A stretch of 64,000 bases of DNA. It comes from Leifsonia virtsii. Lineage in GTDB: Bacteria; Actinomycetota; Actinomycetes; Actinomycetales; Microbacteriaceae. Within the stretch, counting starts at the first letter, position 1; the number at the start of each line of letters is the position of its first letter. The translations under genes and the position numbers were made by a program. The notes under the pieces are model-generated. The model did not search any database, was not told the DNA's origin, and was given only the letters and a program-made list of their open reading frames with translations. The stretch spans positions 124,001-188,000 of the forward strand of contig NZ_JAROCB010000003.1 in assembly GCF_030433675.1 (NCBI RefSeq), in the 5' to 3' direction. Shown in pieces: positions 5,534 to 42,468 of this stretch.

Positions 5534-5596
5534 GACCCGAGCCTCCCTCCGTCGTGCACGTCAGAGGCCAATCCTTACAGAGCTGAAATGCTCGAT

Positions 5597-5609
5597 ACCT
5601 GTGACAGGT
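5597..5609. promoter_or_regulatory. Palindrome ACCTGTGACAGGT in divergent promoter region
   Basis: A 13-bp palindrome with a single central G lies between the response regulator gene and the DM13 lipoprotein gene. It is a candidate operator for the adjacent regulator. OmpR-type regulators more often bind direct repeats, so the assignment is tentative. Confidence 0.35.
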
Positions 5610-5673
5610 CGCGTCGTTACCTTCGATCTCGCCGAGGCAGCCGCCCGGCGAACTGAAACAGAAGGCAGAACCG

Positions 5674-6120
5674 ATGCGCAAGACCCTCCTCCTCGCCGCG
5701 ACCGCAGTCGCCCTCACCGCCGGACTGACCGCCTGCTCCGCGGGCGCCGGCGCCGACACGGCTAATCCGTCGTCCTCGTCCTCGTCCTCCTCGTCGAACT
5801 CGACCACCGCCGCCTCGGACGACCGCACCGGCACCTTCTCCGGCCTCAACAAGATGACGGTGGCGGGCACCGCCACGATCGCCGGCGACACCCTCACCCT
5901 CGCCGGCTTCTCCTCCGACGAGGGCCCTGACCTGCACGTCTACCTGACCAACGGGACCGACGAGGCCGCGGTCACCGCCGGAAAGCAGATCTCCGCGGTG
6001 TCGTACGACAAGGCGTCGCAGACCTTCGACCTGAAGGGGATCGACACGTCGTCGTACACGGACGTCGTCATCCACTGCGACAAGGCGAAGGCCGTCTTCG
6101 GCGCCGCCGCCCTGGCCTGA
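5674..6120 (+). CDS. DM13 domain lipoprotein
   Basis: 148-residue exported lipoprotein. The signal peptide ends in a lipobox with the modified cysteine at C21 (LTAC), followed by a serine-rich linker and a DM13 domain (about residues 50-148) with the typical GTATIAGDTLTL and GPDLHVYLTNG segments. A conserved cysteine near the end (VIHCDKAKAVFG) fits the family. DM13 domains are proposed to take part in redox or electron transfer at the cell surface. It sits 2 bp before a DoxX-like membrane gene, suggesting they act together. GAAGGCAG before the ATG is the ribosome binding site. Confidence 0.88.
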   Translation: MRKTLLLAATAVALTAGLTACSAGAGADTANPSSSSSSSSSNSTTAASDDRTGTFSGLNKMTVAGTATIAGDTLTLAGFSSDEGPDLHVYLTNGTDEAAVTAGKQISAVSYDKASQTFDLKGIDTSSYTDVVIHCDKAKAVFGAAALA

Positions 6121-6122
6121 TC

Positions 6123-6617
6123 GTGCGCACCACCGTCGGATCCCTCGTCGCGCCCGCCCTGGTCGGCGCGGCGAGGGTCGCCCTCGGGCTGCTCTGGCTC
6201 ATCCCGGAGGGGCTGTTCAAGTTCCACGCCGGATTCGGCGCCGACGACATCCTGATCGTCGCGAAGGCCGGGGAGAACAACACCCGGGTCCCCGAGTACT
6301 TCGACGTCTTCGCGCACGCCACCCTCGCGCAGGCGCCCGGACTCTTCGGCGTCGGCATCCCCCTGCTCGAGACCGGGCTCGGCATCGCCTTGATCCTCGG
6401 GGTGCTCACGCGTCCCGCGGCCCTCATGTCGCTGCTGACGCTGCTGCTGTACTGGTCCTCCGACCAGCTGACCTGGGAGTACCCGCTGATGGCAGCCCTG
6501 AGCGTGGTCGTGATCGCGTGGCCGGCCCAGGCGCGGGCCTTCTCGGTGACGGCGCTGGGCGAGCGGGTCAGCCCACGGCTCCGCCGGCTGCCATCACCGG
6601 TGCGGGCCTGGCTCTGA
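6123..6617 (+). CDS. DoxX-like integral membrane protein
   Basis: 164-residue protein with about four membrane helices, opening with a GLLWLIPEGLFKFHAGFGA stretch and ending with a basic tail. The pattern fits the DoxX/DoxD-like superfamily, related to thiosulfate:quinone oxidoreductase subunits, though the match is from overall pattern only. The GTG start lies 2 bp after the stop of the DM13 lipoprotein gene. An exported DM13 protein and a DoxX-like quinone-interacting protein would make a plausible membrane redox pair, possibly under the adjacent two-component system. Confidence 0.75.
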   Translation: MRTTVGSLVAPALVGAARVALGLLWLIPEGLFKFHAGFGADDILIVAKAGENNTRVPEYFDVFAHATLAQAPGLFGVGIPLLETGLGIALILGVLTRPAALMSLLTLLLYWSSDQLTWEYPLMAALSVVVIAWPAQARAFSVTALGERVSPRLRRLPSPVRAWL

Positions 6618-6660
6618 GCGGGCCGCTTGCGCCGCCGCCGCGACGGCGTACCGTCGCGGC

Positions 6661-7053
6661 ATGCCCACCTACACCGCGACCCGGCCCCTCGAGGGCGACG
6701 CCGACGAGTACTTCGACTACATCTCCGACCCGGAGAACCTGCCCGCTTACTTCCCGCGCATGACGGAAGCCCACGAGCTGCCCGACGGCAAGGTGGAGAC
6801 GACCGCCCACGTCGACGCCGACCAGGACGGCAAGGACGAGACCGTCACCTCGGAGGCGGCGTTCGATGTCGACCGCGCCGCCCGCGAGGTGCGCTGGTCG
6901 GCGCCGGGGCCGCACGACTACCACGGCTCCCTGCGGCTCACGGACGACGGGGTCGAGCTCAGCATCCACACGACGCACGAGTTCGACGGGATGCAGCAGG
7001 CGCTCGACGGTTCGCTCGCGAAGATCGCGGAGAACCTGCGCGCCAAGGCCTGA
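6661..7053 (+). CDS. SRPBCC family protein
   Basis: 130-residue START/polyketide-cyclase-fold protein. The N-terminal strand (TYTATRPLEGDADEYFDYISDPENLPAYFPRM) and the final long helix (MQQALDGSLAKIAENLRAKA) are characteristic of this ligand-binding fold. No catalytic residues can be assigned and no ligand is indicated. It lies 19 bp upstream of a haloacetate-dehalogenase-like hydrolase on the same strand, so the two may be co-transcribed. Confidence 0.85.
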   Translation: MPTYTATRPLEGDADEYFDYISDPENLPAYFPRMTEAHELPDGKVETTAHVDADQDGKDETVTSEAAFDVDRAAREVRWSAPGPHDYHGSLRLTDDGVELSIHTTHEFDGMQQALDGSLAKIAENLRAKA

Positions 7054-7072
7054 TCCGCCGGACCGGACGCCC

Positions 7073-7933
7073 GTGTTCGAAGGATTCGCCGTCGACGACG
7101 TCGACGTCGGCGAGGCGCGCCTCCACGTCCGTCACGGCGGAGAGGGACCGCCCGTCGTGCTGCTGCACGGGCACCCGCGCACCGGTGCCACCTGGCACCG
7201 GGTCGCGCCGCTGCTCGCCGAGCGGGGTCGGACGGTCGTGGTGCCCGACCTGCGCGGGTACGGCCGGTCGACGGCGCCCGCGCCCCGGCCGGACCACGCC
7301 CAGGCGTCGAAGCGCGCGATGGCCGGCGACGTCCTCGCCCTGATGCGCCGGCTCGGGCACGACCGGTTCGAGCTCGTCGGGCACGACCGCGGCAGCTACG
7401 TCGCCTTCCGGCTCGCGATGGACCATCCCGAGGCCGTGCGCCGGGTCGCGCTGCTCGACTGCATCCCGATCGTTGAGCACCTAGACCGGATCACGCCGGA
7501 GTTCGCCACCGAGTGGTACCACTGGTTCTTCTTCGCCCAGCCGGACACACCGGAGCGGGTGATCGGCGCCGACCCGGACGCCTGGTACGGCGGCGACCCG
7601 GAGGCTATGGGCGCCGAGAACTTCGCCGAGCGCCGAGAGGCGATCCACAGCCCGGAGGTCGTGCGCGCGATGCTCGAGGACTACCGCGCCGGGCTGACGG
7701 TCGACAGAGCTGACGAGGAGGCGGACCGCGCCGCCGCGCGCCGGCTCGCCGTCCCTCTGCTCGTGCTGTGGTCGCAGCGCGACGACCTGGAGCAGCTCTT
7801 CGGCGACCCGCTCGTCATCTGGCGCGACTGGGCCTGCGACGTGGAGGGCCACGCCATCGACTCCGGACACCACGTGGCCGAGGAGGCTCCCGCCGCCCTC
7901 GCCGGGGCTCTGCTGGAGTTCTTCGACCGCTGA
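7073..7933 (+). CDS. Alpha/beta hydrolase, haloacetate dehalogenase-like
   Basis: 286-residue hydrolase. The nucleophile is an aspartate, D105 in VGHDRGSY, as in haloalkanoate dehalogenases and epoxide hydrolases rather than serine esterases. The oxyanion HGHP motif is at about residue 32. H150-W151 in WYHWFFFAQPD matches the halide-binding pair of fluoroacetate dehalogenases, and the catalytic histidine is H266 in SGHHVAEE. The GTG at 7073 is chosen because the domain begins a few residues in. The true substrate may be another small acid or epoxide; the halide-pocket residues favour dehalogenase. Confidence 0.87.
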   Translation: MFEGFAVDDVDVGEARLHVRHGGEGPPVVLLHGHPRTGATWHRVAPLLAERGRTVVVPDLRGYGRSTAPAPRPDHAQASKRAMAGDVLALMRRLGHDRFELVGHDRGSYVAFRLAMDHPEAVRRVALLDCIPIVEHLDRITPEFATEWYHWFFFAQPDTPERVIGADPDAWYGGDPEAMGAENFAERREAIHSPEVVRAMLEDYRAGLTVDRADEEADRAAARRLAVPLLVLWSQRDDLEQLFGDPLVIWRDWACDVEGHAIDSGHHVAEEAPAALAGALLEFFDR

Positions 7934-7961
7934 GCTGCTCGCTGTCGACAGCACCGACCTC

Positions 7962-8513
7962 TCAATCCGGTCGCAGACCCGCCCTCAGCACGGCGGTGAT
8001 GGTCGCCCGGTCCTCCGGGGGGCCGAGGCGGACAGTGCGCTCGAACCCGCAGACCAGGTGCATGAGCTGCTGGAGCGTGAGGCCCGGCCGGACGGCCCCT
8101 GCTCGCTGCGCGCGCTCCAGGAGGGTGCCGGCGGCTCGCGTCAGCTCGAGCTTTGCCGCGTGGACCTCGGGAGAGGACTCGTCCGCCGCGAGGAGCACCT
8201 GCTGCAGGCCTTCGTCGGAGAGCAGCAGGTCGAGCATGGTCTTCAGGAAGCCGTCGAACGCCACCCTGGCGTCGTCGAGGGCCAGGGCGCCGCGTGCCGC
8301 GGCGAGCGCCCGATCGACAGTACCGGCCGTGAGCTCCTCGACGAGGGCGTCGACGGTCGGGAAGTGCCGGTAGACGGTGCCGACGCCGACCCCCGCGTCG
8401 CGGGCTACGTCGTTGAGCCGCAGTGTCGTGCGCTCCCGCTTGGCGGCCGCGGCGAGGATGCGTTCGCGGCTGCGGACGGCGTCGGAGCGCAGCGGTGTCA
8501 TGGCGACCATCAT
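7962..8513 (-). CDS. TetR family transcriptional regulator
   Basis: About 183-residue repressor. The N-terminal helix-turn-helix reads LNDVARDAGVGVGTVYRHFPT and the C-terminal domain is the helical ligand-binding type. Three ATG codons (8513, 8510, 8501) are possible starts; the first is given and 8501 (179 residues) is also plausible. It is divergent from the SDR at 8586. The intergenic region holds a 17-bp inverted repeat that this protein probably binds to control both genes. Confidence 0.92.
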   Translation of the reverse strand: MMVAMTPLRSDAVRSRERILAAAAKRERTTLRLNDVARDAGVGVGTVYRHFPTVDALVEELTAGTVDRALAAARGALALDDARVAFDGFLKTMLDLLLSDEGLQQVLLAADESSPEVHAAKLELTRAAGTLLERAQRAGAVRPGLTLQQLMHLVCGFERTVRLGPPEDRATITAVLRAGLRPD

Positions 8514-8522
8514 AGCCGAAGT

Positions 8523-8566
8523 GGATAGTTCATCCGGTATGGTGAGGGTTACCGGATGACCTATCC
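8523..8566. promoter_or_regulatory. TetR operator: 17-bp inverted repeat
   Basis: Left arm GGATAGTTCATCCGGTA (8523-8539) and right arm TACCGGATGACCTATCC (8550-8566) are reverse complements with a single mismatch, separated by 10 bp. The element sits between the divergent TetR and SDR genes, ending 20 bp before the SDR start. Two dimers could bind, one per arm, since each arm also contains the smaller symmetric core CCGG. Confidence 0.8.
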
Positions 8567-8585
8567 AATTAGAGACGAGAGACCG

Positions 8586-9552
8586 ATGACCAGAACTTCC
8601 AGCACACTGACGGCGGCCGACCAGGACTGGGACCCCGCGAACCCCCCGCGCCAAGACGGACGCACGATCGTCGTGACGGGCGCGACGGGCGGGATCGGCT
8701 ACTTCGCCGCCGAGCAGCTGGCGGCGGCCGGCGCGGACGTCGTACTGGCCTCCCGCTCGGCCGCCCGGCTGACGGCCGCGCGCGAGGCGATCCTCTCGCG
8801 CACCCCGGACGCGCACGTGCGGACCGTCGTCCTGGAGCTCGGCTCCCTCACGGCAGTGGACGACGCGGCGGCGGAGCTCGCGGCCCTCCCGCGACTCGAC
8901 GGGGTGTTCCTCAACGGAGGCGCCATGTCGATGAACGCCCGCGACCGGACCCCGGACGGCCTGCCGCTGCTTCTCGGCACCCACGTCGTCGGGCATTTCC
9001 GGCTGCTCGCCGGCATCCTGCCCGCGCTCACGGCCACCGCCGTCGAACACGGGGGCGAGAGCCGCATCGTGCACGCCTCCACCGGGTTCGTCGCACGGTT
9101 CCGCCCCGGCTTCGACGACGCCACGCGCGTGCCGCGGCTCGGCGTCGTCGCCTACGCGAAGGCGAAGGCCGTCACCGAGGTGATCGCCTTCGAGCTGGAT
9201 CGCCGGCTGCGCACCGCCGGCCTGCCGGTGGCGTCGATCGTGACGCACCCGGGCGTCGGCGTGGATGCCCGGACCCCCCCGCCGACCGGGCATCCGCGAC
9301 GACACGACGCCGTACCAGCGCAACCCCTACACGCCGTGGGCGCAGGGCAAGGACGCCGCGGCCTGGCCGGGCGTCCGCGCACTGACCGATCCGGAGATCC
9401 GCAGCGGGAGCTACCTCGGCCCTCGGGAAGGCATGCGCGGCGTGCCGGTGCGTATCCCCACGCCGGCACGAACCGCGGCACCCGACCCGGAGACGGTGTC
9501 GCGTGTCTGGTCTCAGGTCGAGACCCTCGCGGGCGTGAGCCTGCCGGTGTAG
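8586..9552 (+). pseudogene. Short-chain dehydrogenase, frameshifted at a C7 run
   Basis: SDR oxidoreductase with an N-terminal NAD(P)-binding motif TGATGGIG and a YAKAK active-site segment. The frame is intact to about 9273 and then leaves the family pattern at a run of seven C (9274-9280). The expected C-terminus (TTPYQRNPYTPWAQGKDAAA onward, to the stop at 9552) continues in the +1 frame. Removing one C restores a 321-residue protein. As read, the product would be 340 residues and run into the end of the PAP2 gene. This is either a true frameshift mutation or a homopolymer sequencing error. It is divergently paired with the TetR gene. Confidence 0.85.
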
Positions 9553-9564
9553 CCGGGGCCCCGG
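9553..9564. terminator. Palindrome CCGGGGCCCCGG filling a convergent gap
   Basis: A perfect 12-bp GC palindrome occupies the whole interval between the SDR stop (9552) and the PAP2 stop (9565). It could act as a small bidirectional transcription stop. The stem is short and has no T-tract. Confidence 0.35.
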
Positions 9565-10389
9565 TCAGGCGAGGCGGCGGTAGAGGCGGTTGCCGAGGGC
9601 GGCGATGACGAAACCGGTGGCGACGATCGCGGCGACGCCGCCCGCGTAGGCGACGAAGAGGTGCTCCGTGCCCGACTGCGCCGAGAAGTACGTGATCAAC
9701 AGCGCCACGACGGACCCTGCCGCGCACACGCCGCCGACCCAGACCAGCGGCCACAGCTTGCTGCGCACCGGCGGTTCGGCGCCGGGCAGCCGCAGCCAGG
9801 CGAGCACGATTCCGGCGAGGCAGCCCCAGAACGCGACCACCAGCATCCCTGCGACGACGTCGCTCGGCCGGTGCCACTGCTCCACCAGGGTGGATGCGCC
9901 CGCCGCGATCGCGAACAGCGAGCCGACCACGGCGGCGAGCGGCCGAAAGCGCGGGGCCGCGAGGAGGAACACCACCAGCGCAGCCGACGCCGCCACCGCG
10001 GTGTGACCGGAGGGGAGCGAGTTGGCGAGACCGACATCCACCCCCTTCTCCGGGCGGGAGAGGACCGTGTACTTCAGCACCTGCGTGCTCACGTTCGCCC
10101 CGACCGCGGCGCCGACCGCGACGGCGAAGACGAGCCAGTTGCGGCGCACGAGCACGATGACGAGCGCGATCACCGCCCCGATCACGACGGAGGCGACCGG
10201 CAGCGCATCGAGGAAGCCGTGCGCGAACTCGATCAGGTCGCCCTTCCAGGCGTCGGCGCCGGCGAAGGCGCGCTCGTCGATCACCTGGCCGATGTAGCTG
10301 CGCACGAACACCAGGTAGACGGCGACGAACAGGGCCGCCGACACCAGCGCGCCCCAGAGGAAGGGCAGGGCACGGACGCTCGATCGCAT
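9565..10389 (-). CDS. PAP2 family membrane phosphatase
   Basis: 274-residue integral membrane protein of the type 2 phosphatidic acid phosphatase family, which removes phosphate from lipid phosphates such as undecaprenyl diphosphate. Motif 1 is KYTVLSRPEKG, motif 2 is SLPSGHTA, and motif 3 is STLVEQWHRPSD. In motif 3 the usual arginine after serine is a threonine, while the catalytic histidine and aspartate remain. About six membrane helices are visible. The ATG at 10389 is followed by a short cytoplasmic basic stretch and the first helix. The altered motif 3 may lower or change activity. Confidence 0.88.
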   Translation of the reverse strand: MRSSVRALPFLWGALVSAALFVAVYLVFVRSYIGQVIDERAFAGADAWKGDLIEFAHGFLDALPVASVVIGAVIALVIVLVRRNWLVFAVAVGAAVGANVSTQVLKYTVLSRPEKGVDVGLANSLPSGHTAVAASAALVVFLLAAPRFRPLAAVVGSLFAIAAGASTLVEQWHRPSDVVAGMLVVAFWGCLAGIVLAWLRLPGAEPPVRSKLWPLVWVGGVCAAGSVVALLITYFSAQSGTEHLFVAYAGGVAAIVATGFVIAALGNRLYRRLA

Positions 10390-30927: not shown

Positions 30928-32406
30928 ATGGATCACACGCAAGCGCCCGTGCTGGACGCGCTGGCCGACTACCACCGCCTCGACCGCCTCGGCTTCACGC
31001 CGCCATCGCACCGGCAGGGCCGCGGACGCGGCGTCGACGACCGCGTCGCGGCGGTGCTGGGCGGCGCGCTCCGGGAGGACGTGCTCGCCACCGCCGGCCT
31101 CGACGATCGGAAGTCGTCCAACGGCTACCTGTCCACCGCGGAGGAGCTCATGGCCGACGCCGTCGGCGCCGACCGGGCCTTCTTCTCCACCTGCGGCAGC
31201 TCGCTCTCGGTGAAGGCCGCCATCCTCGCCGTCACCCGCGGCGAGGGCGAGCTCATCATCGGACGGGACGCGCACAAGTCCACCGTCGCCGGCCTCGTCC
31301 TCTCCGGCCTGCAGCCGCGGTGGGCCTCACCGCGCTACGACGAGGACCAGCACATCGCGCACCCGCCGGGCCCCGAGGAGTACGAGCGGATGTGGCAGCG
31401 CCACCCCGACGCCTCCGCGGCCATCGTCACCAGCCCGACGCCCTACGGCACCTGCGGCGACCTGCAGGCCATCGTCGAGGTCTGCCACGCACACGGCAAG
31501 CCGGTCATCGTCGACGAGGCCTGGGGCGCGCACCTCCCGTTCCACGACGACCTGCCGACCTGGGCGATGGATGCGGGCGCCGACATCTGCGTGGTCAGCG
31601 TCCACAAGATGGGCATCGGGTTCGAGCAGGGGTCGGTCTACCACCTCCAGGGGTCGCTCGTGGACCCGATCCGGCTCTCGCAGTGCGCCGACGTCCTCGC
31701 GACCACCAGCTCCAACGTGCTGCTGTATGCGGCCATCGACGGCTGGCGCCGGCAGATGGTGCAGCACGGGACGCAGCTGATCGGCGACGCCCTCGCGCTC
31801 ACCGCGCGGACGCGGCAGGCCATCGAGCGCATCCCGGGCCTCCACGTGCTGCACGACGAACTGCTGTCGGAGGAGGCGTCGCACGACTACGACCCGATGC
31901 ACGTGCTGATCGACGTGAAGGAGCTCGGCGTCTCCGGCTACCAGGTCGCCGACTGGCTGCGCGCGGAGCACCGCATCGACGTCGGCATCAACGACCACCG
32001 CCGCGTCGAGGCGACGATGTCGATCGCCGACGACGACGAGACCGCCGGCCGATTGCTCGCGGCGCTGGAGCAGCTGCCCGACGCCGCGAAGGGGATGCCG
32101 GAGCCGCCGGCGGTCGCCCTCCCGACCGCGAAGGATCTGGAGCCGGTGATGGCCGCCCTGCCGCGGGACGCCTTCTTCGGCCCGGTGGAGACCGTCCCGG
32201 CGGAGCAGGCGGCCGGCCGGGTCGCCGCCGAGCAGGTCACACCGTATCCTCCCGGGATCCCCGCGCTGCTGCCCGGCGCGAAGATCGACCAGGCGATCGT
32301 CGACTACCTGCGCACGGGCCTCGCGGCCGGGATGGTCATCCCCGATGCGGCGGACCCGAGCCTCGAGACGTTGCGGGTGGCCCGGGCCCTGCCGCACGAG
32401 GAGTGA
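30928..32406 (+). CDS. Orn/Lys/Arg decarboxylase family protein
   Basis: 492-residue PLP-dependent protein of the Orn/Lys/Arg decarboxylase major domain. The PLP lysine is K227 in VSVHKMGIGFEQGS, and the cofactor aspartate is D196 in VDEAWGAHL. Residues 380-492 form the C-terminal domain. It lacks the N-terminal receiver-like wing domain of E. coli AdiA/CadA, matching the shorter biosynthetic/actinobacterial type. It makes a polyamine or diamine while consuming a proton, and with gadB it strengthens an acid-stress theme. Which amino acid it uses is not known. Confidence 0.88.
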   Translation: MDHTQAPVLDALADYHRLDRLGFTPPSHRQGRGRGVDDRVAAVLGGALREDVLATAGLDDRKSSNGYLSTAEELMADAVGADRAFFSTCGSSLSVKAAILAVTRGEGELIIGRDAHKSTVAGLVLSGLQPRWASPRYDEDQHIAHPPGPEEYERMWQRHPDASAAIVTSPTPYGTCGDLQAIVEVCHAHGKPVIVDEAWGAHLPFHDDLPTWAMDAGADICVVSVHKMGIGFEQGSVYHLQGSLVDPIRLSQCADVLATTSSNVLLYAAIDGWRRQMVQHGTQLIGDALALTARTRQAIERIPGLHVLHDELLSEEASHDYDPMHVLIDVKELGVSGYQVADWLRAEHRIDVGINDHRRVEATMSIADDDETAGRLLAALEQLPDAAKGMPEPPAVALPTAKDLEPVMAALPRDAFFGPVETVPAEQAAGRVAAEQVTPYPPGIPALLPGAKIDQAIVDYLRTGLAAGMVIPDAADPSLETLRVARALPHEE

Positions 32407-34562: not shown

Positions 34563-35717
34563 TCAGGGGGCGGGGCGCGGGCGCAGCCCGGGGGCGAGCG
34601 GGAGGAGCGCGGCGAGGACGGAGGCGGCCGCGGCCGCGACGAACGGGCCGGCCGGGCCGGCCGCGTCGCCCAGCAGGCCGGCCACCGCCGTGCCGGTCGC
34701 CGCGCCGATCAGACCGGCGGTGTTGAGCCACCCGAACGCCTCCGGCGTCGCCGACTCGGGCAGGGCTTCCGACACCATCCCGTACAGAGCGGCGAGCGAC
34801 GGGGCGAAGCCGAGCCCCGACAGGAAGAGCACGACGTAGAGCAACGGGATGCCCGGCACGACGCCCGCGGCCGCCGTCGCCAGCGCCACGCCGCCGAGGA
34901 TCGCGGCGAGCCCGCGCGGCCCGATCCGGCGATGCCCGAACGCGACGCCGCCGATCAGGGAGCCGAGGCTCGACACGGCGATCGCGACGCCGGCCAGCAC
35001 GCTGTCGCCGTCGAAGCGCGCGATCAGCGCCAGCTCGAGCGCACCGAACGACGCGATCAGGGCGAAGCTCGCGGCCGCCGCCAGCCGCACGGCCCGCGCG
35101 AGGAGCACCGTCCCGGGCCGCGACTCGTTGCGCGGCAACCGCACCCCGGCGATGTGCGGCGTCAGCAGGAACCACAGGGTGCCGCCGAGCGTCACCGCGG
35201 CCGCGAGCATCAGCGGCGCGCGCGTCGACACCGCGCCGCTCAGCAGCGTGGCGGCGACCGGCCCCGTGATCCAGATCAGCTCCTGCGCCGACGTGTCCAG
35301 CGCGAACAGCGCGGGCACCGCCCGCCGCGGCACGAGCCGTGGATAGAGTGCGCGAACCACGGGCATGAGCGGAGGGACCGACGCCCCGATCATCGCCCCG
35401 AGCAGTACCAGGAGCACGGGATGCGGCGGCCCGAAGGCGAGCAGCAGCATCCCGGCCGCATTCAGCGCCGCCGCGGCCAGCACCGGCGGGCGGATGCCGA
35501 GCACCCCCACCGACCGGCTCACCAGCGGCATCGCGACCGCCTCGCCGACGCTCACGCACGCCACCACGAGACCGGCGAGCGCATACGACCCGGTCGCCTG
35601 CCGCACGTGCAGCAGCACGGCGAGCGACAGCATCCCGAGCGGGAAGCGCGCCACCAGCTGCGAGACGGTGACCCGCAGGACCCCGGGGACGCGGACGAGC
35701 TCCAGGTACGCCCGCAC
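34563..35717 (-). CDS. MFS transporter
   Basis: 384-residue permease with about 12 membrane helices. The sequence has no decisive substrate motif. It starts 4 bp after the end of the sugar-permease gene, so it is probably the last gene of the same transcript as the CUT1 transporter. It could export a breakdown product of the imported compound, such as an amine, but that is speculation. Confidence 0.87.
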   Translation of the reverse strand: MRAYLELVRVPGVLRVTVSQLVARFPLGMLSLAVLLHVRQATGSYALAGLVVACVSVGEAVAMPLVSRSVGVLGIRPPVLAAAALNAAGMLLLAFGPPHPVLLVLLGAMIGASVPPLMPVVRALYPRLVPRRAVPALFALDTSAQELIWITGPVAATLLSGAVSTRAPLMLAAAVTLGGTLWFLLTPHIAGVRLPRNESRPGTVLLARAVRLAAAASFALIASFGALELALIARFDGDSVLAGVAIAVSSLGSLIGGVAFGHRRIGPRGLAAILGGVALATAAAGVVPGIPLLYVVLFLSGLGFAPSLAALYGMVSEALPESATPEAFGWLNTAGLIGAATGTAVAGLLGDAAGPAGPFVAAAAASVLAALLPLAPGLRPRPAP

Positions 35718-35721
35718 CCCG

Positions 35722-36558
35722 CTACTTGCCCACGCCGCCGGCGAGCCCGCGCACGAAGTAGCGCTGGCAGACGAAGAACAGGATCACCATCGGGAGGGCG
35801 GCCATCACCATGCCGGCGAACACCACCGGGTACTGCGTCCCGTTCTTCGACATCATGTCGGCGAGCCCGACCGGCAGTGTCTCGACGCCGGTCCCGCTGG
35901 TGAAGATCATCGCGAACAGGTACTCGTTCCAGTTCTGCAGCACGTTGAGCACGATCGTCGTCGCGACGATCGGCATGCTCATCGGCAGGATGATGCGCCA
36001 GAACGTGGCCGCGCGGGACGCGCCGTCGATGGAGGCGGCCTCATCCACCTCCCGCGGCAGGTCGAGCATGTATGCGCGCATGAGGAACACGGTGAACGGG
36101 ATGCGGAACGCCGTGTACAGGATCAGCAGCCCGAAGAATGTGTCGTAGAGCCCCCACGCCTGGAACAGCTTCACCAACGGGATCAGCGCGACGGTCGGCG
36201 CCAGCATCAGCCCGGCGAGCACGATCACGGTGAAGGTGCGGTTCAGCGGGATGCTCACCCGCGTCAGCCCGTAGGCCGCCCACGCGCTGATGAGCTCGGT
36301 GATGAGCGTCGCGAGCACGGTCAGCGAGACGCTCGTGAAGACGAAGTCGCCGACGCCCTGCGTCCAGGCCTTGGCGAAGTTCTGCCAGAGCCACTGCGCC
36401 GGGAGGGCGAAGGGGTTGCCGAACAGCTCGGCGTTCGTCTTCAGGGCGTTGGTCACCATCCACAGCAGCGGGTACAGGACAACGACGGCCAGGGCGACGA
36501 GCAGCGCCCACACCAGGGCGACGCGGACGCCGCGGCCGAGACGGGCGAGGGCTACCAT
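35722..36558 (-). CDS. Sugar ABC transporter permease, MalG-like (FrlM-like position)
   Basis: 278-residue inner-membrane protein with about six helices and the EAA loop REVDEAASIDGASRAATFWRI. It is the second permease of a CUT1 importer, overlapping the MalF-like gene by 7 bp. In Bacillus subtilis the frl operon has the same parts (FrlO binding protein, FrlN and FrlM permeases) importing fructosamines. Here the assignment to a fructosamine importer rests on the shared palindrome with the FrlB-like and FrlD-like genes. No ATPase gene is present. Confidence 0.9.
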   Translation of the reverse strand: MVALARLGRGVRVALVWALLVALAVVVLYPLLWMVTNALKTNAELFGNPFALPAQWLWQNFAKAWTQGVGDFVFTSVSLTVLATLITELISAWAAYGLTRVSIPLNRTFTVIVLAGLMLAPTVALIPLVKLFQAWGLYDTFFGLLILYTAFRIPFTVFLMRAYMLDLPREVDEAASIDGASRAATFWRIILPMSMPIVATTIVLNVLQNWNEYLFAMIFTSGTGVETLPVGLADMMSKNGTQYPVVFAGMVMAALPMVILFFVCQRYFVRGLAGGVGK

Positions 36559-37547
36559 TCCACTCTCCTCTTGCGCGAGTAGGCCAGCTGGGCTGCGGCC
36601 AGCAGCAGCGTGACGACGAAGATGGCGACGCCGATCGCGGCGGCCGAGCCGAAGTCGTTGGTGACGAATCCGGCGTGGTAGAGCCACGTGCCGAGCACCT
36701 GGCTGGAGTTGTTCGGGCCGCCGCTGGTCATCACCATGACCTCGTTGAACACCTGGAACGCGCCGGAGATCGTGACGATCATCATCAGCCCGGTCATCTC
36801 GCGCACCAGCGGGAGCGACACCTGGAAGAACCGGCGCACCGGGCCGACGCCGTCGAGGTTGGCCGCCTCGTACAGCTCCTGCGGGATGCGCTGCAGCGCC
36901 ACGGAGAACAGCAGGACGCTGTAGCCGAACCCCTGCCACTGGCTCATCGCGATGATGGCGAAGATGGCGGTGCCCTCGTGGCCGAGCCACGCCTGCGAGA
37001 ACTGGCCGAGGCCGAGGTTGTCGAGGAAGACGTTCAACAGGCCGGTCTGCGGCTGGTAGATGAAGTAGAACAGGAGGCCGGCGACGGTCAGCGAGATCGC
37101 CGACGGGATGAAGTAGATCGCCCGGAACGCTTTGCGCCAGCGGTCGCTGCGCACGCTCTCCACGATCGCCGCCAGCACGAGCGCGCCGAACACCTGGAAG
37201 ACGATCGACAGCACCGCGTACCAGGCGTTGTTGCCCAGCGCCCGCCAGAACACCGGGTCCTGCGCGAGGTCGGCGTAGTTGTCCACGCCGACGAAGGTCT
37301 GCTCGCCGCTGTAGATGTTCCACTTCAGGAAGCTGAAGACGATGTTCTGCAGCAGCGGCCAGTAGACGAACACGGCCAGCACGGCCAGCGCCGGGATGAG
37401 CCAGACCAGCCCGCGCCACCCGGCCGGTCCCCGGCCTGTCCTCCGGGAGCCCGCGCCGGGCGCCGGGGCCGTGCGGCCGCGACCCGGCCCCGAGACGGGG
37501 ACGGGGCGCGGCCCCACGGGGGCCTGGGGCGCCTGGGTGGTCGTCAT
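36552..37547 (-). CDS. Sugar ABC transporter permease, MalF-like (FrlN-like position)
   Basis: 331-residue permease with a proline- and arginine-rich cytoplasmic N-terminus of about 47 residues, then six helices and the EAA loop QELYEAANLDGVGPVRRFF. It pairs with the MalG-like permease to form the membrane channel. Its ATG overlaps the binding-protein stop by 4 bp (37544-37547), so the transporter is made as a coupled unit. Confidence 0.93.
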   Translation of the reverse strand: MTTTQAPQAPVGPRPVPVSGPGRGRTAPAPGAGSRRTGRGPAGWRGLVWLIPALAVLAVFVYWPLLQNIVFSFLKWNIYSGEQTFVGVDNYADLAQDPVFWRALGNNAWYAVLSIVFQVFGALVLAAIVESVRSDRWRKAFRAIYFIPSAISLTVAGLLFYFIYQPQTGLLNVFLDNLGLGQFSQAWLGHEGTAIFAIIAMSQWQGFGYSVLLFSVALQRIPQELYEAANLDGVGPVRRFFQVSLPLVREMTGLMMIVTISGAFQVFNEVMVMTSGGPNNSSQVLGTWLYHAGFVTNDFGSAAAIGVAIFVVTLLLAAAQLAYSRKRRVEW

Positions 37548-38866
37548 TTCGCCTTCTCGGACGCCTGTCGCACGGCCTTCAGGGCGGCCTCGGGGGTGAG
37601 GCTGCCGGAGACCAGGCCCTCGGAGACCGAGACCCACGCGTCGCCGACGGACGGCACGTTCGCCATGTCCAGCCAGACCACGGTGGACTTCGCGTCGTTC
37701 ACGAGCTTGGTGCCCTCGGCGACGGCGGGCGTGGCGATCTGGTCGGTGACCACATCCTTCACGGCGCTCGGCTGGCCGTAGGGCGGCGAGGAGAGGGTCG
37801 TCGCGTTCTTCTCGTTCATCACGAACTTCATGAAGTCGAGGGCGAGCGCGGCGTTCTTGCTCTTCTTGTTGATCATGTAGCCCTCGGGCGCGGCCTCGAG
37901 CGCGGTCGGGTCGCCCTTCGCGTCCGCCGGGGCGGGCAGCGGGAAGATGCCGAAGCCGTCCTTGGCGAGCTGGCTGTCCTTGGTGTTGACCGAGTCGAAC
38001 TCGATGAGCTCCTGGTAGTACATGGCCGCCTTGCCCGCAGCCTGCTGCTGCTGGGCGGTGGTGTACGTGACTCCGTTCGAGTTGCCGCCGTCGCCGGTGC
38101 ACTCGGTGACGAGCTGCTGGAACTGCTTCATGCCCTCCAGGTACCCCTGGTCGGTGTACTTCGCGGTCTTCGGCAGCAGGTCGGCATCCCGGACCTTCTG
38201 CGGCACGTCGTAGGCGAAGAGCTGGCCGAGGTAGTGCAGGCCGGGCCAGCCGTCCTTGTTGCCGAAGGCGATGGGGACGTAGCCTGCGGCCTTGATGGTC
38301 GAGCAGTCGGAGATGAGCTCGTCGAACGACTTCGGGATGTCGAGGCCGAGGTCCGTGAAGACCTTCTTGTTGTAACCCATGAACTTGCCGTCGACGTACT
38401 GCGGGATCCCGTAGTACTTGCCGTCGTACTTGAAGGCGTTCAGCGATCCCTCGCCGAAGGTGTCGCCCCACGCGGTGCCCGGTGCGATGACGGAGCTGAG
38501 GTCGACGGCCAGCCCGTTCGCGGCGAAGTTCTCGCCCCAGTTGCCCGCGTAGCTGAAGTAGATGTCGGGCAGCGACTGCGAACCGATCAGGACCTTCTCC
38601 TTGTCCTTGATCGCGTTGTCGTCGGTCTCCTGCGCGAGGGTGATCTTCACGTCCGGGTGGAGCTTCTTGTAGTCCTTCACCAGGTTCTCGAAGTACGAGC
38701 CGAGCGGGTCGCCCGCTGCGGCGGTGAGGATGCTGATGCTGCCGGAGTAGTCCGGCTTCGCCGAGATGTCGGCGGCGCCGGTGCCGCCTCCCGAGCACGC
38801 GCTGAGCGCGAGCGCCAGGACGCCCGCCGCCGCCACCGTGATGGTTCTGGTCTTCTTCACGCTCAT
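37544..38866 (-). CDS. Sugar ABC transporter substrate-binding lipoprotein (FrlO-like position)
   Basis: 440-residue extracytoplasmic lipoprotein, family 1 solute-binding type. The signal peptide ends in a lipobox with C24 (LSAC). The mature protein shows the expected two-lobe pattern, with VFTDLGLDIPKSFDEL near the centre. It would bring the ligand to the coupled permeases. The gene opens a transporter operon that has the palindrome TTGATACCGGTATCAA 101 bp upstream of the start. Confidence 0.94.
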   Translation of the reverse strand: MSVKKTRTITVAAAGVLALALSACSGGGTGAADISAKPDYSGSISILTAAAGDPLGSYFENLVKDYKKLHPDVKITLAQETDDNAIKDKEKVLIGSQSLPDIYFSYAGNWGENFAANGLAVDLSSVIAPGTAWGDTFGEGSLNAFKYDGKYYGIPQYVDGKFMGYNKKVFTDLGLDIPKSFDELISDCSTIKAAGYVPIAFGNKDGWPGLHYLGQLFAYDVPQKVRDADLLPKTAKYTDQGYLEGMKQFQQLVTECTGDGGNSNGVTYTTAQQQQAAGKAAMYYQELIEFDSVNTKDSQLAKDGFGIFPLPAPADAKGDPTALEAAPEGYMINKKSKNAALALDFMKFVMNEKNATTLSSPPYGQPSAVKDVVTDQIATPAVAEGTKLVNDAKSTVVWLDMANVPSVGDAWVSVSEGLVSGSLTPEAALKAVRQASEKAK

Positions 38867-38966
38867 CTCCCGTCATGCGGGTCGTGCGGTCGGGGTGTCC
38901 GCTGACCCGTCCTTGGATCGCCTCACGGTCGCGTCGCGCGACCGATTGCGATGACTATACGGGAAA

Positions 38967-38982
38967 TTGATACCGGTATCAA
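38967..38982. promoter_or_regulatory. LacI-type operator TTGATACCGGTATCAA
   Basis: A perfect 16-bp palindrome with a central CCGG, 101 bp upstream of the binding-protein gene. The same sequence with one change (TTGGTACCGGTATCAA) lies upstream of the deglycase gene at 42316. It has the size and symmetry of LacI-family operators, and a LacI gene lies in between, so both sites are probably its targets. Confidence 0.85.
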
Positions 38983-39030
38983 CTGTGCCCAACCAAAAGC
39001 ACGACAGCCCCTCCCCCGGGCCGGTCGTCC

Positions 39031-39212
39031 GTTCGTGACGAATCGCGTCCGCTCGTCACGAATCGCGACCGTTCGTGAGGAATCGCGGCCATTCGTGACG
39101 AATCGGGGCCGGTCGTCGATTTGTGACGAATCGCGCGCGTTCGTCACGAATCGCGGCCGGTCGTCACGAATCGCGGGCGGTCGTCACGAATCGCGGGCGG
39201 TCGTCACGAGCG
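39031..39212. repeat. 20-bp tandem palindromic repeat array, about 9 units
   Basis: Units of the form TTCGTGACGAATCGCGNCCG follow each other at exactly 20 bp: four from 39031, then one irregular interval (28 bp), then five from about 39121. Each carries the imperfect palindrome TTCGTGACGAA, with the centre alternating between GTGACG and GTCACG. The array starts 16 bp past the LacI stop (39228, minus strand) and lies between it and the operator of the transporter operon. With the remaining sequence down to 38867 this is the only gene-free interval above 300 bp. It does not look coding. Confidence 0.9.
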
Positions 39213-39227
39213 CGGGAGTCGCGCGGG

Positions 39228-40328
39228 TCAGGCGCGCGTGGGCGGCGGGGCGACGGAGGCGCGCTCGACGAAGTCGGCCTCCAGAACGTGGGTGGCGACG
39301 GGGGCGTCGCTGCCGGCGACCCGGGCGAGCAGGCACTCCGCGGTCAGCTCGCCGAGCTGGTGCATGGGCTGCGCCACCACCGACATCGGCGGCGTCATCA
39401 CGCTCGCCCAGGAGCTGTCGTCGAACCCGATGAGGGACACGTCCTCCGGGCAGCGCAGCCCGCGCTGCCGCAGGGCGCGCAGCGAGCCGGTGAGCGCATC
39501 CGTCTCGGTCGCGAAGATCGCGGTCGGCGGGTCGGAGAGCGACAGCATCCCGAGCACCGCCCTCGTCGCCTGCGGCTCGTTCTTCAGCACGTGGGTCACG
39601 AGCGAGGTGTCGAACGGGATGCCGGCGAGCTCGAGCGCATCCAGGTACCCGAGCAGGCGCTCGCCGTCGGACCACAGGGCGTGGTCGATGATGCGGCGCA
39701 GGTCGTCCGCGTCCGCCGCCGGCTCGGTCGTGACCGGACCCCACACGAACGCGATCCTCCGGTGCCCCTGCTCGATCAGCGACGTGACTGCCTGGCGGGA
39801 GGCCTCGCGGTTGTTGATGACGACGGCGTCCGCATCCACCGTGTCCACCAGGCGGTCGAGGAGGACGAGCGGGATCTCGCGCTTGTGCACGATGTCGAGG
39901 TGCGGGAGCTGCGCGCTGCGCCCGGCGGCCGGCGCGAGCGCGATCCCGTCGACCTGCTTGTCGACGAGGACCTCAATGGCCGCGGCCTCCAGCTGCAGGT
40001 CCTCATCCGTGCTCAGCACGAGGACGTCGTAGTCGGCCTTGCGCGCCGCGTCGCTGATGCCGCGGAGCACCCCGGCGAAGAACGGGTTGCCGACGTCGGC
40101 GAGCACGACGCCGAGCGTCCTGGTCTCCCCCGTCGTCATGCTGCGCGCGATCGTGTTCGGCCGGTAGCCGAGCTCCTTGGCGACGGCCAGGATGCGGTCC
40201 CGCGTCTTCGGGCTCACCGAGCCGTAGCCGCCGAGGGTGCGGGCGACGGTGGCGCGTCCGACGCCGGCGGCCGCGGCCACCTCGGAGATCGTCGGCGAGG
40301 GAGTGCGGTGGTCCCGCTCCGTGGACAT
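39228..40328 (-). CDS. LacI family transcriptional regulator of the fructosamine-like cluster
   Basis: 366-residue regulator. The helix-turn-helix (ISEVAAAAGVGRATVARTLGG) is followed by a periplasmic-binding-like domain that would bind the inducer. It is the last gene of the deglycase-kinase-regulator unit, 34 bp after the kinase, so it is probably autoregulated through the palindrome at 42316, and probably controls the transporter unit through 38967. In B. subtilis the equivalent regulator FrlR is of the GntR type, so the regulator has been exchanged here. Confidence 0.92.
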   Translation of the reverse strand: MSTERDHRTPSPTISEVAAAAGVGRATVARTLGGYGSVSPKTRDRILAVAKELGYRPNTIARSMTTGETRTLGVVLADVGNPFFAGVLRGISDAARKADYDVLVLSTDEDLQLEAAAIEVLVDKQVDGIALAPAAGRSAQLPHLDIVHKREIPLVLLDRLVDTVDADAVVINNREASRQAVTSLIEQGHRRIAFVWGPVTTEPAADADDLRRIIDHALWSDGERLLGYLDALELAGIPFDTSLVTHVLKNEPQATRAVLGMLSLSDPPTAIFATETDALTGSLRALRQRGLRCPEDVSLIGFDDSSWASVMTPPMSVVAQPMHQLGELTAECLLARVAGSDAPVATHVLEADFVERASVAPPPTRA

Positions 40329-40362
40329 CGCCACCCCTTCCTGGTCCGGGGCGGCCGCCGCC

Positions 40363-41283
40363 CTAGCCCGCTTCGCCCGCCGCGACCGGCGGGAGCGAGG
40401 GCACCCGCGCGGCCTCGTCGACGACGCGCCCGTGACCGAACGCGCCCTCGACCGTGCACTGCCGCGCGGCGAACTGCGCCGCCCGGCGCATCGACCGGTG
40501 CAGCGCCGCGCCGCCGGGCCGCGCATTCCTGCGCCAGCCGGACCGCAGCAATTCAACCACGAACGCGCTCACGTAGGCGTCGCCGCAGCCCATCGTGTCG
40601 ACCAGTGGACCAGGCACCGGCGCCGCGTCGGAGTAGTAGAACGCGTCGCCATCGAACAGGACCGCGCCGTCATCCCCCTGGGTCCCCAGCACGAGCGACG
40701 GCCCGTGCGACGCGATCCTGCGCAGTTCGGCCCAGGTGTCCGTGCGCGACATCGACCCGAGCGAGACGAGGGCGAGGTCGACCCACGGGCCGACGGCGTC
40801 CAGGTACTCGGGCGTGCGGAACTCGGGCTCGGACGAGAAGTCGTACGACCGCAGCGTCCGCGTCTCCGCCAGCTTCGGCAGCTCCGGGATGACGCCGGAG
40901 TACGCGCTGGAGTGCACCAGCGAGAAGCCGGCGATGTAGCGCTTGTCGTCCTCGCCGATCCGCACCGGATCGCTGATCGTCACGCCGCCCTGGTTCCAGC
41001 CGAGGAAGCGCCGCTCCCCGTCGACCGTCTCGATCTCGGTGACGCCGTTGGGCCCGGGGCGCACCGAGGACCGCGAGGTGTCGACCCCGCAGTCCTCGAT
41101 GGCCTGCCGCACGAAGCGCCCCTGCTCATCGTCGCCGAAGACCCCCAGGTAGGCCGCCTCGGCGCCGAGCTGCCGGGCGAACACCGCGACGTTCACGGCG
41201 TTCCCTCCCGGATACTCGACGCCGCGGTCGACGAACCGGTCGACGATGTTGTCCCCGAGACCGAGGACGCGCACCGTGCTCAT
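40363..41283 (-). CDS. frlD: PfkB family sugar kinase, FrlD-like
   Basis: 306-residue PfkB kinase. The N-terminal glycine motif is PGGNAVNVAVFARQLG, and the C-terminal signature is DTMGCGDAY with the catalytic base D235. The beginning (LGDNIVDRF...GGNAVNVAVF, DDEQGR, DCGVDTS) resembles FrlD, fructoselysine 6-kinase, more than a fructokinase. It would phosphorylate the sugar at O-6 so that the deglycase can act. It is 7 bp downstream of the deglycase and 34 bp upstream of the regulator. The exact amine is not known. Confidence 0.85.
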   Translation of the reverse strand: MSTVRVLGLGDNIVDRFVDRGVEYPGGNAVNVAVFARQLGAEAAYLGVFGDDEQGRFVRQAIEDCGVDTSRSSVRPGPNGVTEIETVDGERRFLGWNQGGVTISDPVRIGEDDKRYIAGFSLVHSSAYSGVIPELPKLAETRTLRSYDFSSEPEFRTPEYLDAVGPWVDLALVSLGSMSRTDTWAELRRIASHGPSLVLGTQGDDGAVLFDGDAFYYSDAAPVPGPLVDTMGCGDAYVSAFVVELLRSGWRRNARPGGAALHRSMRRAAQFAARQCTVEGAFGHGRVVDEAARVPSLPPVAAGEAG

Positions 41284-41290
41284 CGGCGCC

Positions 41291-42292
41291 TCAGTACGCC
41301 ACGACGCGGTAGTACCGGCGCAGGTCGAGGGAGTGGTCGCGCACCTGGGCGAGGTGCTTGCTGAAGCGGTCGACGACCGCGTCCGCCACGATCGGCGCCA
41401 GGAGGCCGCGGAACTCGTCGCTCACACCGGGCAGCTCGTAGTCCTTGGTGTCGATGACGGTGACGTCGTCGCTGTACTCCTTGGCGAACGCGATGACGCG
41501 GTCGGTGAGCGGACGCGTCTCGTCCTCGCCGGCGAACACCAGGATGCTGGTGTCCTTCTCGATGAGCTCGAGCGAGCCGTGGAAGAACTCGGCAGCGTGG
41601 ACGCGCGTGGTCGTGAGCCACTGCATCTCCTCGAGGATGCACATCGAGTACAGGTAGGTGAAGCCCCACAGCTGGCCGGATCCGGTCAGGAAGTGGTAGT
41701 CGGTGTCCGCGTGCTTCTCGGCGAACGCGCGGCCGATCGGGTCGGCCTGCTTCGTGACGGCGATCAGCGCATCCGGGATGGCCTCGAGGTCCTTGACCAG
41801 GCGCTCGTAGCCGTCGAACTCGCCGCGCAGCGACAGCAGCTTGGCGCCGAAGGTGAGGAACTGCACGTCGAACGGCCACGCCTTGGGGGCGGAGAGCAGC
41901 ACCTCGTCGACGGCGGTGGCGATCGGGCTGTCGGCCTGACCGGTGAAGCCGACCGTGAGGGCGCCCTTCTCGCGGGCGAACTCGACGCAGTCGAGGATGT
42001 CCTCGGTGGTGCCGGAGACGGAGGCGAAGATCGCCACCGAGTCGGGGCCGAACTGGGGGTCTGGCGCGAGGATGAACTCCTTGCCGATGACGGCGCGCAC
42101 CGGGAAGGCGGAGCGCGTCTGGAAGAAGCGCTCGTACGGCAGCGCCGCGGCGTAGGTACCGCCCGCGCCGATGAAGTAGATGTTCTTCCAGCGCCCGGCG
42201 CTGACGCGCTCGGCCAGCTCCTCGATCTGCGACCGCAGCGCGACGGTGCTGCGCACCTGCTCCAGGAATTCCTCTTCGTTGAAGCCCAGCAT
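41291..42292 (-). CDS. frlB: SIS-domain deglycase, FrlB-like (fructosamine-6-phosphate deglycase)
   Basis: 333-residue SIS-domain protein. It resembles E. coli FrlB along its length, with the same AREKGALTVGFT-then-ADSPI pattern, EFFHGSLELIE, DETRPLTDRVIAFA and the C-terminal RRYYRVVAY. E222 and H238 are 16 residues apart, the spacing I recall for the catalytic glutamate/histidine pair of FraB and FrlB. Such enzymes split fructosamine 6-phosphate into glucose 6-phosphate and the free amine. The ATG at 42292 has the ribosome binding site GTGGAGGGAG. The operator lies 24 bp upstream. The amine (lysine, asparagine or other) is not determined. Confidence 0.85.
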   Translation of the reverse strand: MLGFNEEEFLEQVRSTVALRSQIEELAERVSAGRWKNIYFIGAGGTYAAALPYERFFQTRSAFPVRAVIGKEFILAPDPQFGPDSVAIFASVSGTTEDILDCVEFAREKGALTVGFTGQADSPIATAVDEVLLSAPKAWPFDVQFLTFGAKLLSLRGEFDGYERLVKDLEAIPDALIAVTKQADPIGRAFAEKHADTDYHFLTGSGQLWGFTYLYSMCILEEMQWLTTTRVHAAEFFHGSLELIEKDTSILVFAGEDETRPLTDRVIAFAKEYSDDVTVIDTKDYELPGVSDEFRGLLAPIVADAVVDRFSKHLAQVRDHSLDLRRYYRVVAY

Positions 42293-42315
42293 GTGTCTCC
42301 CTCCACCGATCCGTT

Positions 42316-42331
42316 TTGGTACCGGTATCAA
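42316..42331. promoter_or_regulatory. LacI-type operator TTGGTACCGGTATCAA
   Basis: A 16-bp near-perfect palindrome, 24 bp upstream of the deglycase start. It differs from the site at 38967 at one position. The close distance to the start suits repression of the deglycase-kinase-regulator unit. Confidence 0.82.
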
Positions 42332-42411: not shown

Positions 42412-42468
42412 CGAGTTGCACGTCGTGGCGGGTAAACGGGTCGAATAGCCGCCACGACGTGCAACTCG
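42412..42468. repeat. 20-bp perfect inverted repeat between divergent genes
   Basis: Arms 42412-42431 (CGAGTTGCACGTCGTGGCGG) and 42449-42468 are exact complements with a 17-nt loop. It lies between the divergent deglycase and GSP39-like SDR genes, so termination of these genes is not a natural explanation. It could be a chromosomal palindromic element or a binding site. Confidence 0.75.

Follow-up and report, generated by a model that had tools for sequence, protein, structure and literature searches.

How might a soil-type actinobacterium feed on glycated amines, and what would control the genes? The question is raised by seven open reading frames of Leifsonia virtsii, which run head to tail on the minus strand of a 64,000-nucleotide stretch of its genome (positions 124,001 to 188,000 of contig NZ_JAROCB010000003.1, or C4:124001-188000; the genome is 4.2 Mb in 10 contigs). 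We will call the whole stretch the window. A sequence-only reading had placed a deglycase, a kinase, a LacI regulator, a binding protein, two permeases, and a major facilitator superfamily (MFS) transporter together here and suggested that they are for the utilization of fructosamines (Amadori compounds). Open frames and Pfam domains agree on this gene set (SIS; PfkB; LacI plus periplasmic-binding-like; SBP_bac_1; BPD_transp_1 twice; and MFS_1). We propose that the genes form a two-unit regulon for Amadori compounds, with import, a kinase, a deglycase, and control by LacI, and we put the probability of this at roughly 85%. The bacterium probably carries these genes to import, phosphorylate, and split sugar-amino-acid adducts as food.

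As we picture it, a glycated amine would be imported by the binding protein and the two permeases, energised by an unlinked, shared ATPase. It would be phosphorylated at C6 and then cleaved to glucose-6-phosphate and the amine. The LacI protein, itself encoded in the deglycase unit, would bind the palindrome TTGATACCGGTATCAA before both units (sites predicted by comparative genomics). Bound LacI would block the importer promoter at its -35 element, and the fructosamine or a pathway intermediate would release it. Passages of PMC12632257 describe FrlR of Bacillus subtilis as a repressor and propose the 6-phosphate as ligand for FrlR of Escherichia coli.

The candidate deglycase and kinase

In a phylogenetic tree, the candidate deglycase groups with Salmonella GfrF (FrlB), an Enterococcus faecium SIS protein linked to a phosphotransferase system (PTS), and the SIS protein of the Priestia frl genes (support 99/99), apart from GlmS. 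(The tree took 51 of 99 SIS rows, and for the references 2a3n, 3eua, 3fkj, and 9ou6 only the aligned portion of each PDB chain was used.) A fold comparison gives as nearest solved structures two entries titled FrlB (8glr) and stm4540.s (2a3n); we take both to be GfrF, which depends partly on locus tags. GFAT/GlmS and NagB-II rank after the deglycases, with GFAT trailing FraB by no more than 1 Z unit. Both tree and fold place the predicted enzyme nearest to Salmonella GfrF/FrlB, whose substrate is fructoselysine-6-phosphate, and not to GlmS; on profile scores, tree, and fold together we rejected a GlmS-type identity. This bears out the earlier view of an FrlB-like deglycase rather than a glucosamine-type isomerase. 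Amino acid identity is 43% to the Priestia protein, 31% to that of B. subtilis (3eua), and 29% to that of E. coli; the closest named relative is from a Leifsonia sp. (96%).

The sequence-only reading had offered two diagnostic features, of which one stands. E222 and H238 (16 residues apart) and R325-R326-Y327-Y328 are all present. E222/H238 align with E489/H505 of E. coli GlmS (counting the Met), and since GlmS has the pair too, we discarded its spacing as a marker of FrlB. The RRYY C-terminus held: R260, H320, R325, and Y327 are common to all the deglycases that we aligned and absent from GlmS. The protein thus has both the catalytic Glu/His pair and the RRY C-terminal motif of the GfrF/FrlB type, with RRY discriminating it from GlmS.

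The kinase's best model is FrlD (151.3 bits) and the next is fructokinase (59 bits), as expected if it is FrlD-like and not a plain fructokinase, which is what the earlier reading had claimed. It is 31% identical to the annotated FrlD of Priestia (over 250 residues) and 28% identical to that of E. coli (over 274 residues). Other kinase matches in its own genome are weak (E = 9e-7 or worse). A tree of 41 chosen kinases has one poor outgroup and is weak at the root.

Import

Domains and profiles assign the binding protein and both permeases to the carbohydrate-transporting type. Pfam finds no importer ATPase among the seven genes. For actinobacterial sugar importers, an unlinked, shared ATPase of the UgpC/MsiK type is expected, and the genome encodes one such protein above the NCBIfam cut-off, unlinked to the cluster (G000:C3:875627-876700). 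The MFS gene recurs in related loci L011, L012, L144, L146, and L147 (L146 and L011 are probably one genome), with no match in the congeneric stretch L145 or in L013.

Table 1. Genes and predicted regulatory sites of the cluster. Positions are in the window; functions and sites are predictions.
Feature	Position	Strand	Remarks
Operator 1, TTGATACCGGTACCAA (plus-strand reading TTGGTACCGGTATCAA)	42316..42331	-	23 bp before the deglycase ATG
SIS-domain fructosamine-6-phosphate deglycase candidate, 333 amino acids	41291..42292 (ATG 42292)	-	first gene of unit 1
PfkB-family kinase, FrlD-type, fructosamine 6-kinase candidate	40363..41283	-	unit 1, 7 bp after the deglycase gene
LacI-family regulator, frl/soc clade, helix-turn-helix VGRATVARTLGGYG	39228..40328	-	third gene of the deglycase unit
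Operator 2, perfect 16-bp palindrome TTGATACCGGTATCAA	38967..38982	-	before the binding-protein gene
Sigma-70-type promoter-like site of the importer unit: TTGATA, 17 nt, TATAGT	38954..38982	-	-35 hexamer is the start of operator 2
Extracellular solute-binding protein, SBP_bac_1	37544..38866	-	first gene of unit 2
Importer permease 1 (ATP-binding cassette, or ABC, type)	36552..37547	-	ATGA overlap with the binding-protein gene
ABC importer permease 2	35722..36558	-	unit 2
MFS transporter, MFS_1	34563..35717	-	last gene of the importer unit; not in all relatives

Two predicted units and their common palindrome

The gene arrangement suggests two units, with a palindrome before each, instead of a single one (Table 1). 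We divide them this way because there are two palindromes and because the 361-bp gap between the units holds both a promoter-like and a terminator-like site. TTGATA-17-TATAGT is the only promoter-like site that a scan returned in that gap, and there is one terminator-like site (mean of 0.3 in shuffles). The palindrome also bears on where the deglycase begins. The sequence-only reading had the interval end at 42331; its gene set stands, but the TTG at 42331 sits inside the operator-like palindrome, so the ATG at 42292 is the likelier start.

At up to 3 mismatches, the two palindromes are the only ones in the window, as compared to none in 100 shuffles. At up to 2 mismatches, the palindrome occurs in the genome at those two places only. 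When the regions before the deglycase and binding-protein genes were scanned for palindromes in 80 related loci, this motif came up again. (These loci are the best of 505 confirmed among at least 589 pattern hits, so that the nearest relatives are favoured; contig ends truncate several of them, and loci from one genus cannot count as independent.) The consensus, TG[AG]TACCGGTA[TC]CA, which was counted in the same 80 loci that it was derived from, has 123 sites in 1,417,935 bases and is present in 65 of the loci. Most of the sites (112 of 123) lie within -400..+20 of the deglycase start, and the other 11 are at +3100 to +3230, which is where the importer unit starts in loci with this gene order. 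Where the units are divergent, the same sites serve both. As a control, 200 half-site-permuted palindromes gave zero matches in the 80 upstream regions. The 15 loci that lack the consensus are 11 from Streptomyces, L085 and L087 (which have imperfect sites), L089, and L090 (Bacillota).

We also searched whole genomes from the window's family. A deglycase match at 1e-60 or better is found in 16 of the 249 family genomes, and we used all 16 of these plus 64 without a match. The motif is present in all eight genomes whose deglycase is at least 62% identical, always at the cluster (15/15 sites), in none of the eight with only a 36–42% identical relative, and in two of the 64 without a match. At least two of the eight positives (G173 and G077) were already among the 80 loci (as L011 and L075).

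Two other repeats lie near these sites. A 23-bp near-perfect inverted repeat (96%, with an 11-bp loop) lies in the gap that precedes the deglycase unit, at 42412-42468 of the window. The region separating lacI from the importer unit holds, at 39018-39209, about nine units of 20 nt with the palindromic core TTCGT[GC]ACGAA. We considered this array as an operator and ruled it out: it belongs to a dispersed genomic repeat family, often in small arrays, and its 16-mer TTCGTGACGAATCGCG has 103 matches in the genome at up to 2 mismatches (56 forward and 47 reverse), versus 0 for the reversed pattern.

Related loci and their variants

The 80 loci come from named genomes of Arthrobacter, Streptomyces, Nonomuraea, Agromyces, Leucobacter, Microbispora, and others. 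The kinase is present in 78 (at least 40% identity), LacI in 66 (at least 45% identity), the binding protein in 60, and the permeases in 61 and 60. Under the identity cut-offs applied, all five partners are found in 54 of the 80 loci, which is more than chance. The earlier reading had spoken of a swapped regulator. That LacI takes the place of GntR is supported by the LacI domain and by the related loci; with LacI in 66 loci, the swap is not confined to this genome. Next to the main deglycase, a GntR protein resembling FrlR of E. coli was found in one of the 80 loci, L090, in a search that would detect GntR proteins of that similarity.

Nine loci have a second, divergent SIS deglycase-like gene (L021, L022, L036, L069, L074, L078, L079, L082, and L088). 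These second SIS proteins form their own clade (100/100), and a tenth, weaker one (from L036) is placed elsewhere. GntR-type regulators accompany them in L069, L074, L078, and L088, with another called in L036, and some of these loci have an FrlD-like kinase as well. LacI-type and GntR-type modules coexist in some genomes, perhaps for different substrates.

In a Streptomyces variant (L027, L028, L031, L035, L040, L044, L047, L048, L055, L081, and also L080), genes for a polyamine-type importer are followed by the deglycase and kinase, with a divergent LacI of its own subgroup. Ten of these loci have the polyamine-type importer genes; L080 has such a permease only, and no LacI was seen in it. 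The palindrome of this variant, TTGGTAACGTTATCAA, is present in the 7 of 7 loci looked at. In L084, L086, L087, L089, and L090, a membrane protein of one cluster (the representative, from L084, is of the Na_H_antiporter family) is beside the deglycase and kinase, and no counterpart of the window's ABC importer was called. Further away, an E. faecium plasmid (AP026587.1, 6357-11475; L107) encodes an SIS protein with 41% identity to that of the window, beside a mannose-type PTS and a GntR-family regulator, and SIS matches are found in 171 Enterococcus plasmid records.

The window also has an Orn/Lys/Arg decarboxylase-family gene (30928-32406, plus strand), which we considered as a clue that the amine is lysine. 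We dropped this idea, as there was no match at E <= 1e-20 in 85 loci searched, within limited flanks.

A LacI clade shared with the oxidative route

According to a review, pAtC58 carries socR and socABCD, whose substrate is deoxyfructosyl-glutamine (santhopine) (passages of PMC4231840). In three trees, LacI proteins of the frl type, of the soc type (including SocR of pAtC58), and of the Streptomyces type are together on one side of a branch, with support of 99 versus 5 other LacI proteins, 99/97 versus 19, and 99/94 versus 27. The outgroups of the last two trees are the genome's own paralogues rather than a sample of all LacI proteins: the second tree has the 19 of 28 paralogues that passed the pattern, with 24 hand-picked frl/soc rows, and the third has 27 of 28, with 18 picked rows (the paralogue search also gave eight weaker match rows without a locus). 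The frl core has a support of 97 in the 5-outgroup tree. Rows were sorted into frl, soc, and Streptomyces types mainly by their score to the window's LacI, and one "soc" row (L036_14135) has no soc-like neighbors called and lacks the helix signature described below. The closest paralogue of the window's LacI in its own genome (44%) is the LacI of a soc-like operon.

That operon, for a putative Amadori oxidase, is on the same contig at about C4:613-619 kb, about 450 kb from the cluster (L105, C4:609000-627000, positions 4207-10059). It has a divergent LacI and the palindromes CTGAGACCGGTCTCAG and CAGAGACCGGTCTCAG, 25 bp apart. No soc genes adjoin the window's LacI. Frequent neighbors of the cluster in other genomes are a LacI, an amino-acid-type binding protein and permease, a Gfo/Idh/MocA dehydrogenase, and an oxidase that uses flavin adenine dinucleotide (FAD); the same set is found on pAtC58, adjoining repABC. 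At least two of four soc markers are in the flanks of 8 of the 80 loci, and in the congener G178 the cluster is immediately followed by soc-like genes for a LacI, a binding protein, and a permease, at which point the sequence covered ends.

The helix signature V[GS][RKQ]...AR.LG.YG is found in 78 of 79 clade LacI rows from the loci, in the window's LacI, in the genome's own soc LacI, and in SocR, and in none of 5 outgroup rows. (Four of 91 LacI rows were dropped when reading helix residues, as the helix-turn-helix pattern was not found or they were too short; 87 were left.) The residue at the variable position mostly goes with the site: R with the frl site TGRTACCGGTAYCA, Q with the Streptomyces-type site TTGGTAACGTTATCAA, and K with the soc site TGAGACCGGTCTCA, which is found in L. 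virtsii, G178, and pAtC58 (the K was read in the first and last of these). Work on LacI suggests that the varying base is the one touched by this helix position. The window's sites are not the soc palindrome TGAGACCGGTCTCA but of the TGATACCGGTATCA type: the core ACCGGT is the same, and the flanks differ.

So the LacI looks like no random swap and seems to have an origin in common with that group, and both known Amadori routes appear to be served by a single clade of LacI proteins. We go further and suggest, at slightly better than even odds, that this is a dedicated Amadori family of repressors, acting on the oxidative route in Rhizobiaceae and Actinobacteria and on the kinase/deglycase route in Actinobacteria. 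Its operators would have diverged at a symmetric position next to ACCGGT (TGATACCGGT- versus TGAGACCGGT-), mostly along with the helix residue (R in frl and K in soc, with one frl exception), which would insulate the two routes in genomes with both. There is no kinase in the soc route, so the clade would most likely sense the unphosphorylated compound or an early product, in contrast to FrlR of E. coli and B. subtilis, whose proposed ligand is the 6-phosphate.

Weighing the proposal

Several findings weigh against our proposal or its extension to soc. The deglycase scores 106 bits against NF008481 (the E. coli-type FrlB equivalog of NCBIfam), below the cut-off of 430, and this is still its best-scoring model. 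None of 14 control genomes passed that cut-off, E. coli included, so this control does not validate it. Identity to GfrF is 36%. The kinase is also below its NCBIfam cut-off (151.3 bits, as compared to 247 for NF007321). An FrlC-like epimerase is found in 42 of the 80 loci (163 bits for its representative against the fructoselysine 3-epimerase model, whose cut-off is 305) and is missing from the window's cluster; elsewhere in the genome there is only a weak match (E = 6e-7, 30%). The binding protein's best labelled relatives in PDB bind xylo- and chitin-oligosaccharides, so they do not fix its ligand. A promoter scan found no sigma-70-like site before the deglycase unit. On the soc side, support for the soc LacI group is lower than for the frl core (85 in one tree and 91/67 in another), and the Streptomyces-type LacI shifts, from beside soc (86/80) in the 19-outgroup tree to an unresolved position in the 5-outgroup tree. 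None of the 80 loci, not even the 8 with soc-like neighbors, has the exact soc site TGAGACCGGTCTCA, so its tie to the soc group rests on three genomes; and the frl LacI of L088 has K, yet has an frl-type site. These last two points weigh on our estimate for a dedicated clade. The enzyme activities, LacI binding, and expression are predicted roles.

Could the cluster have another substrate? SIS enzymes of this superfamily also act on 2-amino sugars. One alternative is a route for Heyns compounds, in which a GfrE-like SIS enzyme would convert an N-substituted glucosamine-6-phosphate (such as from glucoselysine) to fructose-6-phosphate. Salmonella pairs GfrE, for glucoselysine-6-phosphate, with GfrF, for fructoselysine-6-phosphate (passages of PMC12675984, where one legend reverses the pair). 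We consider this route improbable: the nearest solved structures are the FrlB and stm4540.s entries, and GfrE is described as a homologue of glucosamine-6-phosphate synthase (in part of PMC12735817) and the window's enzyme is far from GlmS in a tree that does not contain GfrE. Least probable of all is an ordinary aminosugar cluster of the glucosamine type, with a general sugar importer and a fructokinase-like kinase. The SIS fold, a CUT1-type importer, LacI, and PfkB kinases are all common in sugar operons, and GFAT/GlmS and NagB-II follow the deglycases in the fold ranking, GFAT being the one within 1 Z unit of FraB. However, the tree and profile scores, the residues H320, R325, and Y327, the LacI clade in common with SocR, and a separate GlmS-like match in the genome (C3:754 kb) all argue against it.

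A closer contest concerns the substrate within our proposed pathway. It might be a plant or opine-like Amadori compound of an alpha-amino acid (deoxyfructosyl-glutamine and its kin), shared with the soc operon, instead of epsilon-fructoselysine. Deoxyfructosyl-glutamine is the substrate of soc (passages of PMC4231840 and PMC8262997), soc-like genes flank a tenth of the related loci and adjoin the cluster in one congener, and the frl and soc LacI proteins are in one clade. Pulling the other way, the nearest characterised deglycases use fructoselysine-6-phosphate, and the FrlC-like epimerase accompanies about half of the relatives. We view an alpha-amino-acid substrate as a real possibility, a little short of even.

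Comparison with known systems

The enzymes are of known families, and the new part is the regulator-operator system and its tie to SocR. To our knowledge, the known kinase/deglycase systems (B. subtilis and E. coli) all have GntR-type regulators. Among the papers listed in searches of the open-licence literature of PubMed Central, most subscription journals being outside it, we found no description of LacI control of this route, which is weak evidence of novelty. FrlD-like genes in Actinobacteria (part of PMC9749803) and soc genes in Arthrobacter (part of PMC8262997) were already noted. Our proposal describes a widespread actinobacterial version, with an operator-like site by which the regulon can be recognised in sequences from Leifsonia, Arthrobacter, Streptomyces, Nonomuraea, and others. 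It would tie two biochemically unrelated Amadori routes together through their regulators, and the paralogous repressor-operator systems make a matched set. It also becomes testable which parts of glycated matter these bacteria sense and use as food.

The frlBONMD-frlP operon of B. subtilis, with frlR, has the same parts, as the sequence-only reading had noted: a deglycase, a kinase, a binding protein, two permeases of a type I ABC importer, and a specific repressor. But FrlR is likened to the GntR-type NagR, while the window has LacI, and the ATPase FrlP is in the operon (both accounts are from passages of PMC12632257). Also, the B. subtilis deglycase (3eua, 31% identical) is in another branch, and its genes form one operon, instead of two units with a shared palindrome. 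The closest characterised deglycase, GfrF of Salmonella and its E. faecium counterpart (Salmonella FrlB, PDB 2a3n/8glr), has the same E/H pair and an RRYYR tail. In those systems a mannose-type PTS performs both uptake and phosphorylation (passages of PMC12675984, and the E. faecium plasmid operon), where the window has an ABC importer and a kinase. The frlABCDR genes of E. coli and the frl genes of Priestia share the FrlD-type kinase and the SIS deglycase, and their FrlC-type epimerase is found in many relatives of the cluster; they differ in having a GntR-family regulator (annotated as such beside the Priestia operon) and an importer of the amino-acid-permease type. The santhopine operon of pAtC58 (socR-socABCD) has a LacI of the same clade and a palindrome with the core ACCGGT. 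Unlike the window's cluster, it has an FAD oxidase, an amino-acid-type importer, and the palindrome TGAGACCGGTCTCA, and no kinase or SIS deglycase is annotated in the operon.

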